The translations under genes were made by a program, and so were the position numbers. A model generated the notes under the pieces. It was not told the origin of the DNA, searched no databases, and saw only the letters and a list, made by a program, of their open reading frames with translations. From a virus: 61,600 nt of DNA. Shown in pieces: positions 23,802 through 44,881 of the stretch. Every line of letters begins with the position of its first letter. The first letter of the stretch is position 1. The stretch spans positions 1 through 61,600 of IMG/VR virus record IMGVR_UViG_3300025168_000088; one strand, written 5' to 3'.

Positions 23802-23872
23802 TCTTATTAGTCTTATCTTAGGAAGAAAATTGCGGGAGAGAGAGCCGTAGGGAGAGAGATTCTCAAACCTAC
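23797..23872. repeat. TAAGACT/AGTCTTA operator-like element alpha
   Basis: Contains AGTCTTA twice and two GGGAGAGAGA tracts. Related to the elements at 24571-24640, 29829-29910 and 29955-30041. Confidence 0.5.
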
Positions 23873-23941: not shown

Positions 23942-24415
23942 CTACTCAAGCAACTCAAGAAGGGCTGTGTAGGCCATGACAATACCTTCAACTTGAGTAT
24001 TGATTGAAGGGCCGGTCTTTGTCTTCTTGTATTCAGTGGTTCGCACTTCTTTCATTGGTATGAGTTCGGTCTTTGTTCTTGCTGATGCTCCGGCGCACTC
24101 GCCATGTTCTCTACCGGCTCCGGTTCGCTTGTTTGCTCCGGCCAACTTAATCGGGCCTGTAGAACGACCTAATGAGTTGCCACTGATGAGTGATTGAGTT
24201 TTCTTGACTCTATAACGGCCTGTAAGGAATGTTTCACGCTTTGCTCCTTTGGTGGTGGTTCTATCGTGGGTTTTGTCACATTCAACGGCCATTTGACCTT
24301 GAGCCTGATATTGGGCCATGTCCTTCTTAATTCTCTTGAGTAGTTGCTTCGATGCTTGAGGCTTCGCTTCATCTATTCCGTAGTGCTTCATCAGTGTTAT
24401 TATGGGGTTCGCCAT
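23942..24415 (-). CDS. basic protein, unknown
   Basis: A 157-aa protein with high Lys/Arg/Thr content and a Gly/Ala/Arg-rich middle (AGANKRTGAGREHGE). The C-terminus is acidic and helical (EGIVMAYTALLELLE). A TATA-like box (TGATATAC) is centred 25 nt before its ATG. It is the first leftward gene from the divergence point, so it may be a regulator. No family recognised. Confidence 0.55.
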   Translation of the reverse strand: MANPIITLMKHYGIDEAKPQASKQLLKRIKKDMAQYQAQGQMAVECDKTHDRTTTKGAKRETFLTGRYRVKKTQSLISGNSLGRSTGPIKLAGANKRTGAGREHGECAGASARTKTELIPMKEVRTTEYKKTKTGPSINTQVEGIVMAYTALLELLE

Positions 24416-24570: not shown

Positions 24571-24640
24571 GTTATATTAGTCTATAGTCTTAGGAAGGAA
24601 CCACGACCGAGAGGGGTCTTGGGAGAGAGATTTTGACTTG
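24571..24640. repeat. operator-like element beta
   Basis: AGTCTATAGTCTTAGG followed by GGGAGAGAGATTTT. On the minus strand TAAGACTATAGACTA directly abuts an AATATAAC TATA-like box. Confidence 0.5.
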
Positions 24641-24656
24641 TCCAAAAGTCCAAGTT

Positions 24657-24912
24657 TTCGATGCACTCCGCTCATGCTTTGCCGTTGATGTTTGAGGTTA
24701 TGAACCCTTTGTTTTTGTTGTTTTTCGGCTGTTTTCATTTGGTGCCGGCCTGATGAGCACTTTTTCTCTATTCGATGGACTGCGTGACCGATGGCCCCTA
24801 ATTCGCTCGGATTCGTGAAATGTGCGTTTTTGGGCTGTTTTGGGGGGTTCGGCGGCCTGTGTCAAGCCGACGATTTAGGGCACCCTAATTTCGGCTATTC
24901 GATGCACTGCGA
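24657..24912. repeat. iteron-like repeats TTCGATGCACTGCG (three copies) in a gene-free stretch
   Basis: Copies at 24657-24670, 24771-24784 and 24899-24912, differing by 1-2 bases, spaced 114 and 128 bp. The stretch 24416-24950 has no convincing gene. It holds T-rich tracts and an interrupted hairpin near 24867-24896. Candidate binding array for a replication or divergence-region regulator. Confidence 0.5.
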
Positions 24913-24921
24913 GCCATTTTT

Positions 24922-24933
24922 GTTATAGGTGGG
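24922..24933 (+). promoter_or_regulatory. promoter GTTATAGGTGGG for the structured RNA
   Basis: Resembles class B TTATATAGTGGCG with one base missing. It places a transcript start near 24950, at the upstream edge of the hairpin-rich stretch. Confidence 0.45.
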
Positions 24934-24949
24934 TTCATATACTATACCC

Positions 24950-26090
24950 CACTATGACTGTTTGCTCAACCAACAACACCGGTTGGAGCCGAAGCGAAAC
25001 TTGCCGAGAATCGGTCTACCCTTACGGGAGCCGTCGGCGCTCATACGGCCCTTGATTCATCAAGGGTTCTTGAGGCACCACAGACCGAAAACACTTGATT
25101 GAGTCCTTCGGAAAACCCAGAATATCGGGTATATGGAGGGACTGCGTAGCCTCGCACTGCCTCTCTTTGAGAGGTGGGGTAGAGGACTCTTGAACCCGTT
25201 TCTAAATACCTATTAGACGCATATTGAAATAGCGAAGGGATGGTCGTGCCCCCAAAGGGAATAACACGGACATATGACAGACAGTGTGAGAATGACTCGC
25301 ACTTCATCGGAGTTGCTGAAGACGCCACCAATGGACTTTCATCCCTATCGACGGGATGCCGGTTCGGTGGCTACATTAGGCACTGAAAGCATCAATCAGC
25401 GAAGGGTTGAGAAGCATCACTTCTCGACAGGGGCGACCCGACTCCCTTCAATGATGACGGCTTACAATCCAATGACAGTAGACCTAAGACCCTACTTGAG
25501 GACATATATGGCATACGAGACCGCAGTGAACATAACGGATTCATATTCCCTAAGAAGGCGGTCAAGAATCAAGGCATCAGATTCGGGTCGTGCCCGACTG
25601 ATGACACTATTTAGTAGCGAACTATGAATGACAGTGGCAAACGGTGACGGGAGCCACATTCGGATAGATTCCACGGGATTATAACTATCCCGATGCCAGA
25701 TTATCGGCTTAGGACTTCATTCATAGGGAGTATCTATGCGGGGAATAAACCGGCGGAGTGTCTATGATGCAGTGGGGGAGCGGGTGCTTTTCCGATAGGG
25801 CGAACCTCGCCCGAATCCACCCCTCTCCGATATTCTCTCCTGTGACTCCGGCATGGGTGCCTCGGCACCTATGCCCTTCATGGTCAATGACGAGCCGGCC
25901 TACGGGCCACCTCCGAGACCACATCCGATTCACACCGGTGTAGATAGAAGCAATCGCACCTCGGCTACTGCCGACTACACCAGACCCAAGAATGCGGCGG
26001 AGACTCTACCGCCAGCGAACTCTCTCCCTCAAAGAAAGAGAGCGGTTGAAAGAGACCAAGAAAAGAGAGGGGAATGCGCTTAGGCAAGGC
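24950..26090 (+). ncRNA. large structured non-coding RNA (candidate)
   Basis: About 1.1 kb with no credible protein but many perfect hairpins. Examples: 25049-25066 (7 bp), 25160-25174 (6 bp), 25283-25303 (8 bp), 25340-25358 (6 bp), 25406-25428 (9 bp), 25583-25597 (5 bp, plus 5 more beyond a 2-nt bulge), 25674-25692 (6 bp), 25722-25738 (5 bp), 25798-25812 (6 bp), 25850-25875 (11 bp), 25961-25974 (5 bp). The G-T pairs in three stems (25283, 25406, 25850) pair only if the plus strand is the RNA. Boundaries are estimated from the upstream promoter and the next gene. It may act alone or be a long leader of the amidoligase gene. No known RNA family recognised. Confidence 0.6.
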
Positions 26091-26114
26091 CCATATAAAA
26101 ACGGAGGACAAAAA

Positions 26115-28859
26115 ATGTATGAAAATGCAATAAACGGAGCAGACGGCGCAATCGGTGCGATTATCGGCATGCTATGGGTGTTTACACTCATGGGTGCGGT
26201 AGTTGTTACCTTTGCGGCCAACAGAAGAGAAGAAACAATGCGTATGCGTGTTGGTATTGAAATTGAGGCAATTCGTAATGAACATGCCCAAGAAGCACCA
26301 AACACCAGTATCGCTAACTGGCTTGACACCATGCGTTCACAGCATGGTGACAAACATGTGGACAAATACTTGGCTACCTTGAAAAAGCGGCGAAGTCAGT
26401 GGATAAAAACTCGTGCTGAAAGGCGACGGGTAATACATGCCGCTCTACCACACAGTTATCGTGGTAGTAGATTCCGCATTCGTGACGAATCATGGAGTGC
26501 GGGTCAAACCACATTCTACACCAAAGTCACCACCGACGGTTCGCTGTCATCAGGTGGTTTTGAAGTCGTGTCGCACCCTTTAACAGATGGTGCACATCAC
26601 GGATGGATTGCTAAGGTATGTAATGCACTACGACACATCACACGGGTGGACCGTTCAACTGGCCTCCATGTGCATGTCGGATTGCGTGACCCCGAAGCAA
26701 GATTCGGTGACGAAGGACAAATTACCCGACGACAAGCAGTTGCGATTGCTGGCCGTGTGGCTTGGGCATATGCTCACTTCACACCCGCTTTCAACAAATT
26801 GGTTTCATCAAGTAGGCATCACGGTCAATACTGTGCGCCTGCCAACCACATGACGAACACATATCCAAACCCCGTAGAACATCAGCGGGTCGAAAGATTA
26901 CATCATGTGATGGAGATACCAGACGAACAACACGACATCAACATTCGTTATACACCATTGTCAAGTCATCCAAATGACGAAGGCTACTGGTGCGAAAGAG
27001 TGCATACCCTCACAGGTCCGGCACTTCACGAAGCAATGTATGACGCATCTCAAAATGCGGGTCGTTACTACCACTTGAACACCAACAGTCTACTTAACCG
27101 TAACTTTGGCACTGTCGAGTATCGACAACATCAAGGCACTACCAACCCAGTGAAAATTAGTAACTGGGTCGAACTGACCTATCAGTTCACACTGGCATGT
27201 GCTGACGAGACCAACTTCGACGGAATTATGCAATACCCACCGACTCTTGAAGGTCTTTGGGCATTCATGGATTTCGCTGACGACGACCCACTCGTAGACT
27301 ACTACAACAAGCGTGCATCAGTTCTCGCTGGTTCTCAACTTATTCGGGCTTGTTCCGAGTGCGATAGCCACACCTGTGTGCACTACGAATGTGTCGGTGG
27401 AAATGACCAGCAGGTCATGCAAAACATCGGCACACACCTCGCTCCGGCGGCTTACGAGTGCGTAGATTGTGGATGTCACATCGAAACACATAATGTTGAT
27501 GCAGAAGACATGACAGCCTCATGTTATGAGTGCGACCAGTATGTCGAGGTATGTTATGCCTCCGGCTTAATTGCATCACTCGCCCTCGGCTTCTTTGTAG
27601 CCGCACCACTCGTGGGTGCAGTTGCACTGGTAGTCGGTTGCGGTATAGGTGCTATGCACGCTGGTTCAAAGAAGTTCATGGCGAAGCGGTCGTTCAAGAA
27701 GTTATGGAACGACCTCGCATCCCGTGGCGGTCAAGCGGCTGGCTTTGCGTGGCAAAAGCGTAAGGATAAGCATGTGTGGCATCTCAAGGCACCGGCGTCG
27801 TCGGTCTACCTCAAGAAGCATGTCAACAAGCACTTGGATAAGTCAACGGTATGGGCTATGGCTCACACACGATATGCAACACACGGTGTCAACAACAAGG
27901 CAAACGCACACCCGCACTTTGGTTATGACAACAAAGGTGTAGCGGTAGTGACATTAGTGCACAACGGAGTGGTTCACAACCACGATGATGTATGGCATGC
28001 ACTTGGGCGTAAGCCTACTGGCCCAGTTGACAGTGAAGCAGTTGCCGCCGCCCTTGCGGTCGGTGGTATCGAAAAGGTGGTTGAGACCTGCAATGGCTCA
28101 ATGTCACTCATATGGTCGGACACACGAGACCCGAAAGGGACACTCAAGTTCTGGTCTAATGGTGGCAACCCACTGTGTGCAGGGCGACTCGACCATCCAA
28201 ACACCGGAACAGTTGTTGTTGCATCGACACTCGACATACTCGAAAAGTCTCAAGGCTCACGCCTCAAGACTTCTTGGGCATGCACAGTCGGTCGTGAATA
28301 CACCATCGACCCAAGCGGTAGCATCACTGGTCGTGACATCAAAGGTAGTGCCGACACAGCATACGGTGCATACTCGTGGCGCACATACGCTACCCTCACA
28401 GGTGGCGGCAAGTCGAAGTCCAACAAGACTCGACAGTTGAGCGTCAAGTCCAAAAAGCCAAAGGGTAAAACCGATGGTAATGCGGATAACTGTGCAGTCG
28501 TGTTCAGTCCAACGGAGCGCAACTCCGATTGGCAATACGAATACGACGACATGTTGCTCAACGAGGCATTGTATGACGCATGGGCGGCTATGAGCATGTC
28601 TGGTTTTCCAGCAATTGACGACTATCACGGTTACGATGGTTACACACATGAAGGCGTCCGTCCAAACGGCAGTAAGTATTACCTGCCCAACTACATCTAC
28701 GGTCTACCTGTAGACCCTACCACCAACACGGACATGCAGGTCATGCTAATGCTCGGTGACTTCGACCCTCAAAAGTCCAAGTCCGACTTTGACTTTGCCG
28801 ACGAACCATACGACGACCACTGGGTGCCGACCGACCAACTCGGTAATCCACTGTATTGA
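26115..28859 (+). CDS. membrane-anchored amidoligase / zinc-ribbon / class-II glutamine amidotransferase fusion
   Basis: 914 aa from ATG 26115 (SD GGAGGA, 6 nt before). Residues ~12-34 are a membrane helix. Residues ~45-370 match amidoligases (glutamine-synthetase-like COOH-NH2 ligases, PF12224 type): GIEIE 47-51, DGSL...FEVVS 141-153, HVHVG 185-189, FGTVEYRQHQGT 331-342. Cysteines 413-480 form two zinc-ribbon-like clusters. A second hydrophobic segment (484-507) runs into an Ntn-type glutaminase domain: Cys509-Gly-Ile-Gly, HTRYATHG 584-591, NAHPH 597-601, HNG 616-618, Asp639. In this family the Cys must become N-terminal, so cleavage after Gly508 is predicted. Expected chemistry: ammonia or amine transfer from glutamine to form amide bonds; substrate unknown. 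Confidence 0.8.
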   Translation: MYENAINGADGAIGAIIGMLWVFTLMGAVVVTFAANRREETMRMRVGIEIEAIRNEHAQEAPNTSIANWLDTMRSQHGDKHVDKYLATLKKRRSQWIKTRAERRRVIHAALPHSYRGSRFRIRDESWSAGQTTFYTKVTTDGSLSSGGFEVVSHPLTDGAHHGWIAKVCNALRHITRVDRSTGLHVHVGLRDPEARFGDEGQITRRQAVAIAGRVAWAYAHFTPAFNKLVSSSRHHGQYCAPANHMTNTYPNPVEHQRVERLHHVMEIPDEQHDINIRYTPLSSHPNDEGYWCERVHTLTGPALHEAMYDASQNAGRYYHLNTNSLLNRNFGTVEYRQHQGTTNPVKISNWVELTYQFTLACADETNFDGIMQYPPTLEGLWAFMDFADDDPLVDYYNKRASVLAGSQLIRACSECDSHTCVHYECVGGNDQQVMQNIGTHLAPAAYECVDCGCHIETHNVDAEDMTASCYECDQYVEVCYASGLIASLALGFFVAAPLVGAVALVVGCGIGAMHAGSKKFMAKRSFKKLWNDLASRGGQAAGFAWQKRKDKHVWHLKAPASSVYLKKHVNKHLDKSTVWAMAHTRYATHGVNNKANAHPHFGYDNKGVAVVTLVHNGVVHNHDDVWHALGRKPTGPVDSEAVAAALAVGGIEKVVETCNGSMSLIWSDTRDPKGTLKFWSNGGNPLCAGRLDHPNTGTVVVASTLDILEKSQGSRLKTSWACTVGREYTIDPSGSITGRDIKGSADTAYGAYSWRTYATLTGGGKSKSNKTRQLSVKSKKPKGKTDGNADNCAVVFSPTERNSDWQYEYDDMLLNEALYDAWAAMSMSGFPAIDDYHGYDGYTHEGVRPNGSKYYLPNYIYGLPVDPTTNTDMQVMLMLGDFDPQKSKSDFDFADEPYDDHWVPTDQLGNPLY

Positions 28860-29628: not shown

Positions 29629-29828
29629 GCATAATCCAAATGCCAAGCCAAAAATACCAAATGGATGACGGGCATTTTAACCCGACGGTTGAGGAACCAC
29701 CCACGATAGATGCGCAGGCGTGCGCTATACAAATACGCTTCATTTTTTTAATCAGCGAGAGGACAGTGCATACCGGCGGGGTAGGTGCTATCAATTACAT
29801 AGGGGCATAATTGCGCACGACTGGAGAT

Positions 29829-29910
29829 GCTCTCTCTCCCCCCCATAGTCTTAAGACTTAAGACTAAACCACATGTGCTAAGGAGAGCGATTTTTGGCGG
29901 CGAAAAATCC
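29829..29910. repeat. operator-like element gamma
   Basis: GCTCTC ... AGTCTTAAGACTTAAGACT ... GAGAGC, then a hairpin GATTTTT/AAAAATC (29889-29909). The inverted GCTCTC/GAGAGC arms enclose the palindromic core. Confidence 0.55.
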
Positions 29911-29954
29911 AAACACTCACGCCCGCACACACACATGCGTCATACACTACTAAA

Positions 29955-30041
29955 ATCGAGGCTCTCTATGCACATACAGTCTTAAGACTGAATCCCCCAC
30001 TGCATGCGTATTAGGAGAGCGGATTTTCACCTAAAAAAATC
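29955..30041. repeat. operator-like element delta
   Basis: Same order as the element at 29829: GCTCTC, palindrome AGTCTTAAGACT, GAGAGC, then hairpin GGATTTT/AAAATCC. The spacing is nearly the same, which argues for one conserved functional unit. Confidence 0.55.
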
Positions 30042-30169
30042 CAAATCAAAATGCTCATAAGGCACACACACATACACACACACGAACAGGTGAGGTTTTA
30101 GGGCATACGAAAAAGCCCCCATACAGGCGAAAAAGCGAACATATGTGCGGAAACAGGCGTAAAGCACTC

Positions 30170-30252
30170 CGATTACGCCAAAAAACGGGGCAATCGTATG
30201 TGCATGGGTAGGCTCACGCATCATATGCGAGTGTTTCGATTACGCCAAAAAC
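30170..30252. repeat. direct repeat CGATTACGCCAAAAA
   Basis: Perfect 15-bp copies at 30170-30184 and 30238-30252, 68 bp apart, within the gene-poor region upstream of the small-gene cluster. Confidence 0.6.
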
Positions 30253-30407
30253 CAAACACCTTATAATGCGTATGTGCGAGAACGCTCTACTTTCGCACCC
30301 GTTCCGCATACACATCCATACATGACGCATATACACACACTTACGCATAGGGCCAGCAAACAGGGGAGCAGTGACCTCTTTAAGTAGCAGGTGTAGGGGG
30401 AGAATGC

Positions 30408-43847: not shown

Positions 43848-44516
43848 ATGGGAGTAGTAATTTTTACCAAAGACGATGAGCGATACCGGACTGGCGACTA
43901 CTTCACCATGTATGGTGGACTCACAGTCTCCCCCTCTCTCCCACACACTACTTACATTCTACACATTAACAAGTTCAGTGAACAAGACGCTCTCTATTGG
44001 ACTAAGATTGTTCCTTTCCGACTTGTAGTGGTTTGTGACAAGTTGCCTAAATTGACAAAGGCGAGTGACGAATGCGTCATCCTCGACCAATCAATCAAGA
44101 CAGACAAGCCCGACTACTCTCGTAAAATGAGAGCCGCCCTATGCTGGGCCGACCGTGACCGAGCGCATACTGCTCTCGGCCCTATCCCTCTCCCCTTAGC
44201 CAACGCATTCATCAAGGTTAATGTTCACGACATCAACCTCGGTCGCCTCTTGGCTCGGTGCCGCTACACGCTACACGAAAATTACACTCGTGCCGCTATT
44301 GCATACGGCATCAATCCAGTTCGTAAGTTCAAGTGGCCTTCTAAGAAGGCCAACAAGGACTATATAGTGCCGATGGGTATTAGACAATCAGACAAGCACA
44401 TAGCGACAATCATCAATAATGATGTATTGACTGCTAATGAGTTGCGCATCAATGATATGACTGCGCTACCTGCTGGTCTAAATAAAACAAAACAGGAGGC
44501 AATACAATGGGTATGA
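43848..44516 (+). CDS. hypothetical replication-module protein
   Basis: 222 aa. An alpha/beta N-terminal part (TYILHINKFSEQDALYWTK then RLVVVCDKLPKLTK) and a C-terminal helical, basic part. The layout (Rossmann-like beginning, helical end) faintly recalls a degenerate clamp-loader subunit, but no motif supports that. Overlaps the next gene. Confidence 0.5.
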   Translation: MGVVIFTKDDERYRTGDYFTMYGGLTVSPSLPHTTYILHINKFSEQDALYWTKIVPFRLVVVCDKLPKLTKASDECVILDQSIKTDKPDYSRKMRAALCWADRDRAHTALGPIPLPLANAFIKVNVHDINLGRLLARCRYTLHENYTRAAIAYGINPVRKFKWPSKKANKDYIVPMGIRQSDKHIATIINNDVLTANELRINDMTALPAGLNKTKQEAIQWV

Positions 44517-44881
44517 TGATACAACAAGAAGCAATAGATACGGTGTTCGTTTACGGGACACTAAAGAATGGATATAGCAATCACGGATTGGTAAAAGACT
44601 CTCTCTTTCTTGGCGAGTTCTCCACTAATCCAAAGTGGGGGTTAATTGACTTAGGCTTATACCCTGCTATGGTTCGTGGTAGATTTGAAGTGAAGGGCGA
44701 GGCATACGGTGTCTCGGAGTCTACTCTTGAAAGACTTGACTACCTCGAAGGCGTAGACCGAGGACTTTACTCTCGCCGTAGAATCAATGTCAAAGATAAT
44801 CTCGGAAATAAAATTAGTGCTTGGGTCTACATTTACAATGCTATTCCACATGACACTGTTCAACTTATGGAGGAGTGGTGA
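44507..44881 (+). CDS. gamma-glutamylcyclotransferase-like protein (GGCT/AIG2 fold)
   Basis: 124 aa from ATG 44507 (SD AGGAGG). The hallmark YGTLKNG (16-22) is followed by YPAMVRG (52-58), GEAYGV (64-69) and the catalytic Glu of RLDYLEG (Glu81). Such enzymes release pyroglutamate-like cyclic products from gamma-glutamyl amines or peptides. In bacteria they can be encoded near amidoligases, so this may act with the fusion protein at 26115. Length is normal for the family. Confidence 0.8.
   Translation: MGMMIQQEAIDTVFVYGTLKNGYSNHGLVKDSLFLGEFSTNPKWGLIDLGLYPAMVRGRFEVKGEAYGVSESTLERLDYLEGVDRGLYSRRRINVKDNLGNKISAWVYIYNAIPHDTVQLMEEW

Follow-up and report, generated by a model that had tools for sequence, protein, structure and literature searches.

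A candidate large structured RNA directly upstream of an amidoligase gene in a probably archaeal virus

In the virus record IMGVR_UViG_3300025168_000088 of IMG/VR (61.6 kb; the window analysed here covers the record in full), the stretch that directly precedes an amidoligase gene shows noncoding conservation, conserved motifs and compensating changes, and it has a fixed position before the gene. Based on these observations, we consider it highly likely that the stretch contains a structured RNA. This RNA is very probably large and intricately folded, and comprises ~1.1 kb at the head of the amidoligase gene.

Results

The virus and its amidoligase gene

The leftward genes of the window include those for a tape measure protein, a portal, a large terminase and a DNA-repair exonuclease. 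The rightward genes include a gene for an amidoligase fused to a class II glutamine amidotransferase, and genes for an RFC-like AAA ATPase, a family B DNA polymerase, a PD-(D/E)XK/Cas4-like nuclease and an ERCC4/XPF-like nuclease. A host link was sought through bacterial and archaeal genomes and none was found; however, an archaeal host is likely because the distant matches of the terminase include haloarchaeal phiH and PhiCh1, and because the best-listed match of the DNA polymerase is Halorubrum tailed virus 27. The virus probably infects marine archaea. Separately, a gamma-glutamyl cyclotransferase-like gene (AIG2/GGACT) is present at 44507-44881 on the plus strand; this family is known to co-occur with amidoligases.

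As the first-pass annotation of the window had noted, the stretch at 24950-26090 lies directly before the fusion gene, the start of which has the following features:

26103-26108, plus strand: Shine-Dalgarno-like GGAGGA (from the sequence; kept in homologues)
26115-28859, plus strand: amidoligase + class II glutamine amidotransferase fusion, 914 aa (PF12224 and PF13522)

The start codon at 26115 is common to homologues. The longest possible ORF begins at 25992 and would overlap four of the hairpins described below (A to D); this extension is not conserved, and in the relatives L006 and L004 it is interrupted by nearby stops and, therefore, hairpins A to D are not coding. Gene callers that are run automatically may pick the wrong start and thereby mask the 3' end of the RNA.

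The stretch is conserved in position and in motifs

Relatives were gathered with the exonuclease and later with amidoligase profiles; the amidoligase as a single query did not find them, but profile searches did. A homologous element is present at the same place in five related virus contigs, i.e. L006, L004, L005, L007 and L010. In L006, the nearest relative with an amidoligase that is ~60% identical, noncoding blocks are kept at ~80% identity and gaps remove a whole hairpin. The pairs L004/L005 and L007/L010 share the gene order of the window and likewise have a noncoding stretch in that position; little of this stretch can be aligned by sequence search, yet the motifs GAGCCGAAG, GGCAUCAGAU, UAUGAUGC, the GACUCU loop, UUGAAAGAGA...AAAAGAGAGG and UAGGCA recur in order. 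The first motif, which belongs to hairpin P1, is found in 6/6 viruses (in L005 as GACCGAAG), and the middle and 3' motifs in four. While these short motifs are kept, the stems between them change in sequence and stay paired. On this basis, we propose the following parts:

about 24960-26110, plus strand: proposed structured RNA, ~1.15 kb (noncoding conservation, covariation, folding)
24961-24995, plus strand: P1, 5' hairpin UUGC-stem-GAGCCGAAG (six viruses, five different stem sequences)
25104-25142, plus strand: P3, two-part stem with outer CCUUC/GGAGGG and inner CCC/GGG (CUG/CAG in L006)
25283-25303, plus strand: P5, hairpin AGUGUGAG/CUCGCACU; in L006 GGGUCGGG/CUUGACCC, which pairs fully over 8 bp
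25324-25371, plus strand: peripheral stem, expansion-segment-like, in the window and not in L006 (alignment gap, fold)
25406-25445, plus strand: P7, hairpin followed by the GGGCGACC motif (stem differs yet pairs in L004 and L005)
25574-25770, plus strand: domain between GCAUCA (25574-25579) and UGAUGC (25765-25770), a possible long-range helix
25850-25875, plus strand: 11-bp hairpin (in L004, L007 and L010, a 71-nt branched module lies at the corresponding distance from the gene)
25938-25981, plus strand: PE, stem GGUGUAG/CUACACC (different paired stems in L006, L004 and L005)
25996-26013, plus strand: hairpin A, GACUCU in the loop
26020-26042, plus strand: hairpin B, CUCUCU/AGAGAG (GAGAU/AUCUC in L004, CACAU/AUGUG in L005)
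26044-26057, plus strand: hairpin C, conserved loop UGAAAGAGA (stem covaries: GGUU/GACC in the window, GCUU/GAGC in L006)
26075-26093, plus strand: hairpin D, UAGGCA in the loop (stem covaries; one C-C mismatch in the window)

The GCAUCA/UGAUGC helix is a candidate pairing: its halves are invariant in four viruses and thus offer no variation, and the window offers a local alternative pairing. The 71-nt module, for which a branched fold is predicted, has 91-94% identity between L004, L007 and L010, with immediate flanks that cannot be aligned; it is located about 285-215 (L004), 244-174 (L007) and 242-172 nt (L010) before the amidoligase gene, and other exact copies of its core were not found in IMG/VR. 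It looks as if it had been exchanged or were strongly constrained.

Conservation is also observed next to the gene, i.e. from -225 to +60 at 85% in L004/L005, from -120 to +60 at 88% in L128/L130, and from -317 to +53 at 80% in L012/L015. Moreover, a second lineage (L011, L013, L126-L130) has a different leader upstream of the amidoligase gene, with blocks of ~70-150 nt and 75-90% identity at changing distances from the gene. In amidoligase relatives down to ~30% identity, long ORF-poor stretches precede the gene; the location immediately before a single gene family is constant among the amidoligase relatives. Distant blastn searches of phage genomes with the stretch gave no match, and an exact-motif search of IMG/VR for further homologues returned only the known contigs and unrelated coding sequence.

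Among 20 further records of the exonuclease clade, many of which are fragments, the amidoligase was undetected in 19, and the record of L025 is the sole carrier. In this record (G031, 26484-28567), the amidoligase homologue is split across several frames and has an in-frame TGA, suggesting a broken gene or an assembly error.

The stretch does not encode a conserved protein

No conserved ORF lies in the interval from a leftward ORF of 157 aa (23942-24415) to the amidoligase start at 26115. The claim that 24950-26090 is free of protein is borne out: the longest internal ORF (25274-25627) is not conserved, translated comparisons match in each of the six frames and score similarly, and DNA blocks that are 100% identical between the window and L006 are read in different frames. 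Thus, conserved coding in homologues, which had been named as an observation that would speak against an RNA, was not found, i.e. there is no frame-specific conservation.

Hairpin counts and folding energies

Hairpin density had been an argument for an RNA in the first-pass annotation. Stems of the described kind exist, i.e. 12 stems of 6-11 bp that do not overlap and have loops of 3-10, with G-T pairs in 10/12; however, the assumed chance level of one or two is too low, as dinucleotide shuffles with G-T pairs allowed give 8.5 ± 2.6, and the average over the window is 11.5 stems per such length (6-11 bp, G-T allowed). The statistics of that annotation are therefore weaker than claimed and, because 12 versus 8.5 ± 2.6 is not significant, we dropped hairpin counts as evidence for an RNA. 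Stems with Watson-Crick pairs only are enriched (6 versus 1.7 ± 1.2 in shuffles).

In the stretch, folding z-scores average -2.1 (plus strand) and -1.6 (minus strand); elsewhere in the window, the plus-strand mean is -0.67 (sd 1.3), with similar lows reached in other parts. Thus, the stretch folds modestly below the remainder of the genome in energy and is more stable than shuffled controls, equality with which had been expected if there were no RNA. In total, hairpin counts and folding z-scores alone are insufficient to carry the claim of a structured RNA.

Base pairing is preserved by compensatory changes

When four sequences were aligned automatically by structure, the result was poor outside the anchors and, therefore, helices were matched by hand between the conserved motifs. 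In one alignment, the L007 row had incorrect coordinates and was disregarded. Hand matching may favour paired readings; doubtful entries were excluded from the evidence and, for this reason, three further tests were run, based on single-sequence structures, on coding controls, and on hairpins C and D.

In the less biased covariation test, the structure was predicted from a single sequence, the alignment was made by sequence only, and 500 controls were used. Compensatory double changes were in excess in three homologue pairs: 27 versus 10.3 expected in window/L006 (control maximum 19), 36 versus 19.7 in L004/L005 (control maximum 31), and 6 versus 0.5 in L007/L010 (control maximum 3). By contrast, coding controls had no excess (9 versus 15, 7 versus 6, and 8 versus 4.5). 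The covariation score of hairpins C and D was 0.483 compared to 0.233 when shuffled (1/500 as high) and ≤0.067 when slid. Moreover, RNAalifold z-scores relative to column shuffles were about -2 to -6.6 on the plus strand for most of the stretch in window/L006. In the second lineage, plus-strand covariation was found in L126/L128 (20 versus 7.1, maximum 16) and L128/L130 (14 versus 7.1, maximum 14). Support was weak in L012/L015, and none was found in L011/L013, L133/L136 or L143/L144. With covariation present, conserved coding absent, folding more stable than in shuffled sequence, and no match in Rfam (see below), the initial proposal of a candidate new large structured RNA is supported.

Strand and upstream block

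The first-pass annotation also argued from G-T pairs that the plus strand is transcribed. This argument survives weakly in the stems, where the ratio of GT to AC mismatches is 17:9, and fails in a strand-neutral test (155:173), in which there is no asymmetry. Folding favours the plus over the minus strand in 6/6 leaders when leader windows are averaged and in 5/6 in a second analysis, and pairing survives single changes in L126/L128 and L012/L015 more frequently on the plus strand; compensatory pairs also occur in antisense folds. Because these statistics are mixed, the orientation leans mainly on context, i.e. TATA-like elements before P1, no terminator-like site between the stretch and the amidoligase gene, and, directly 3' of hairpin D, the Shine-Dalgarno site followed by the start codon. 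From these elements, we infer that the plus strand is transcribed.

A "class B-like box" had been placed just upstream; we could not identify it as such, and found instead a conserved block with a repeated element:

24768-24929, plus strand: conserved upstream block, likely promoter or operator (sequence conserved among six viruses)

The block contains two copies of CTATTCGATG[GC]ACTGCG (24768-24915), a GTTTTTGGGCTGTTTTGGG block and a T tract. At 24923-24929, the window has the TATA-like TTATAGG, and L004, L005, L007 and L010 have TTTAAGG at the corresponding place. The element CTATTCGATG[GC]ACTGCGAG, located at 24768 and 24893 of the window, recurs with ≤3 mismatches intergenically in many relatives (L039, L042, L066, L067, L081 and others), and some of the contigs carrying it are without an amidoligase gene.

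Comparison with known RNA families

Neither the window nor any of 13 related loci gave an Rfam match at gathering level, and at E≤5 the region 24600-26300 gave nothing but an unrelated 17-bit snoRNA match. None of the Rfam models for riboswitches, ribozymes, introns, rRNA and RNase P RNA matched; a hammerhead-like string, CUGAUGA...CGAA, at about 25592 had no Rfam ribozyme match and was rejected. The covariance models of GOLLD, ROOL and OLE did not match either and, by this measure, the RNA is not a member of these families, which it resembles in size and build only. Membership would also entail a homo-oligomeric RNA complex.

GOLLD RNA is found in phages and prophages and in many cases exceeds 800 nt (PMC12286853). 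Like GOLLD, the proposed RNA is virus-encoded, large and multi-domain with one part better conserved than others (PMC12286853). Unlike GOLLD, it precedes an amidoligase gene in a virus that is probably archaeal, and it is not near tRNAs, as the window contains no tRNA or tmRNA. ROOL RNA (about 660 nt) is similarly large, virus-encoded and without known function; however, its neighbourhood is different, with tRNAs being frequent neighbours of GOLLD and ROOL and absent from the window. OLE RNA (about 600 nt) is likewise large and ornate, and its variable stems alternate with conserved motifs, as proposed here, but it comes from Gram-positive extremophiles. Like the proposed RNA, OLE RNA is tied to neighbouring protein genes, in its case through an operon. 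Cis-regulatory leaders and riboswitches, including glutamine-sensing ones, lie directly before one gene and are structured up to the ribosome-binding site. By contrast, the stretch is several times larger and matches none of the known families, and conserved sequestration of the Shine-Dalgarno site was not seen.

To our knowledge, few large structured RNAs from viruses of bacteria have been described, and their functions are unknown; for archaeal viruses, we found none described in the open-licence literature.

Discussion

The best explanation for these observations, to which we give about an even chance, is that the stretch serves as a structured and very long 5' leader in the amidoligase mRNA and acts in cis. 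Transcription of the plus strand would begin near 24950-24965, and the stretch would be co-transcribed with the gene as the first ~1.15 kb of its mRNA. The RNA would fold into multiple domains in which the motifs of loops and junctions are conserved and the helices change fast, and the leader may set the timing or efficiency of amidoligase translation, or the retention of the transcript. We favour the cis leader as the best single mechanism because the element is tied to the amidoligase gene and because several pairs show good conservation of the part proximal to the start codon. The Shine-Dalgarno site right behind hairpin D, the lack of an intervening terminator-like site and the covarying plus-strand leader of the second lineage also speak for it. 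Four points count against it: the sequence statistics on the strand are mixed, with compensatory pairs in antisense folds and no G-U excess in the strand-neutral test; conserved sequestration of the Shine-Dalgarno site was not seen; the RNA evolves fast; and its size is far above that of known regulatory leaders.

In an alternative reading, the stretch is a large "ornate" noncoding RNA with a function in trans, by itself or together with a protein, and is just transcribed along with the amidoligase gene or processed from the region before it, in the way that GOLLD, ROOL or OLE RNAs are separate entities in bacteria and phages. Its size and complexity match those of the large ornate RNAs, which span 600 to over 800 nt (PMC12286853), the conserved motifs here extend over the whole length rather than being confined to the gene-proximal end, and entire peripheral domains are gained, lost or swapped; such an RNA might form RNA-only assemblies or a ribonucleoprotein with the amidoligase. 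We regard action in trans as possible but doubtful, as the element is always tied to one downstream gene, conservation adjacent to the start codon is strong in several pairs, and a terminator-like site that would separate the RNA from the gene was not found.

An element acting at the DNA level, i.e. a replication origin or a packaging or recombination site with hairpins acting in single-stranded or supercoiled DNA, is unlikely. The stretch does sit between divergent gene blocks, where transcription direction and AT skew switch, and both the compensatory pairs on either strand and the equally common GU and AC changes in the strand-neutral test fit such an element. However, the better plus-strand folding in both analyses, the GT:AC ratio in stems and the pairing-preserving single changes in L126/L128 and L012/L015 argue against it, as do the well-conserved gene-adjacent end and the presence of origin-type repeats in another region, 29800-30400.

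Finally, an unrecognised or decayed protein-coding region, which would accord with the possible start at 25992 and with a run at about 25442-25535 in which window/L006 differences are spaced by multiples of three, is rejected by the frame tests and is very improbable, as the phase shifts inside this run, whole pairs show no comparable lag-3 peak, six-frame scores are alike, invariant blocks lie in different frames and the N-terminal extension is closed by stops.

Beyond the cis leader, we tentatively raise the idea of a new class of kilobase-scale ornate RNA in archaeal tailed viruses that is built of exchangeable modules and is paired and acts with the amidoligase/glutamine amidotransferase; it may act as a ribonucleoprotein, serve as a scaffold or a substrate, or be a giant leader that senses a ligand. 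The neighbouring gene is constant, the second lineage has a different structured leader in that position, and the homologues suffice to establish parts of the secondary structure; therefore, the role of the RNA is directly testable together with the amidoligase.

Other regions were observed in passing. In the window, 29800-30400 is a candidate replication origin or regulatory region containing the intergenic repeats TAGTCTTAAGACT, GGAGAGCGATTTT...AAAAATCCAAA, GATTACGCCAAAAA and CACACACACATGCG, and similar strings are also found near 23815 and 24580. In L081 (12980-13365) and L033 (13140-13374), which belong to a sister clade without the amidoligase, DNA that forms strong hairpins on both strands is present with z-scores down to -8.6.
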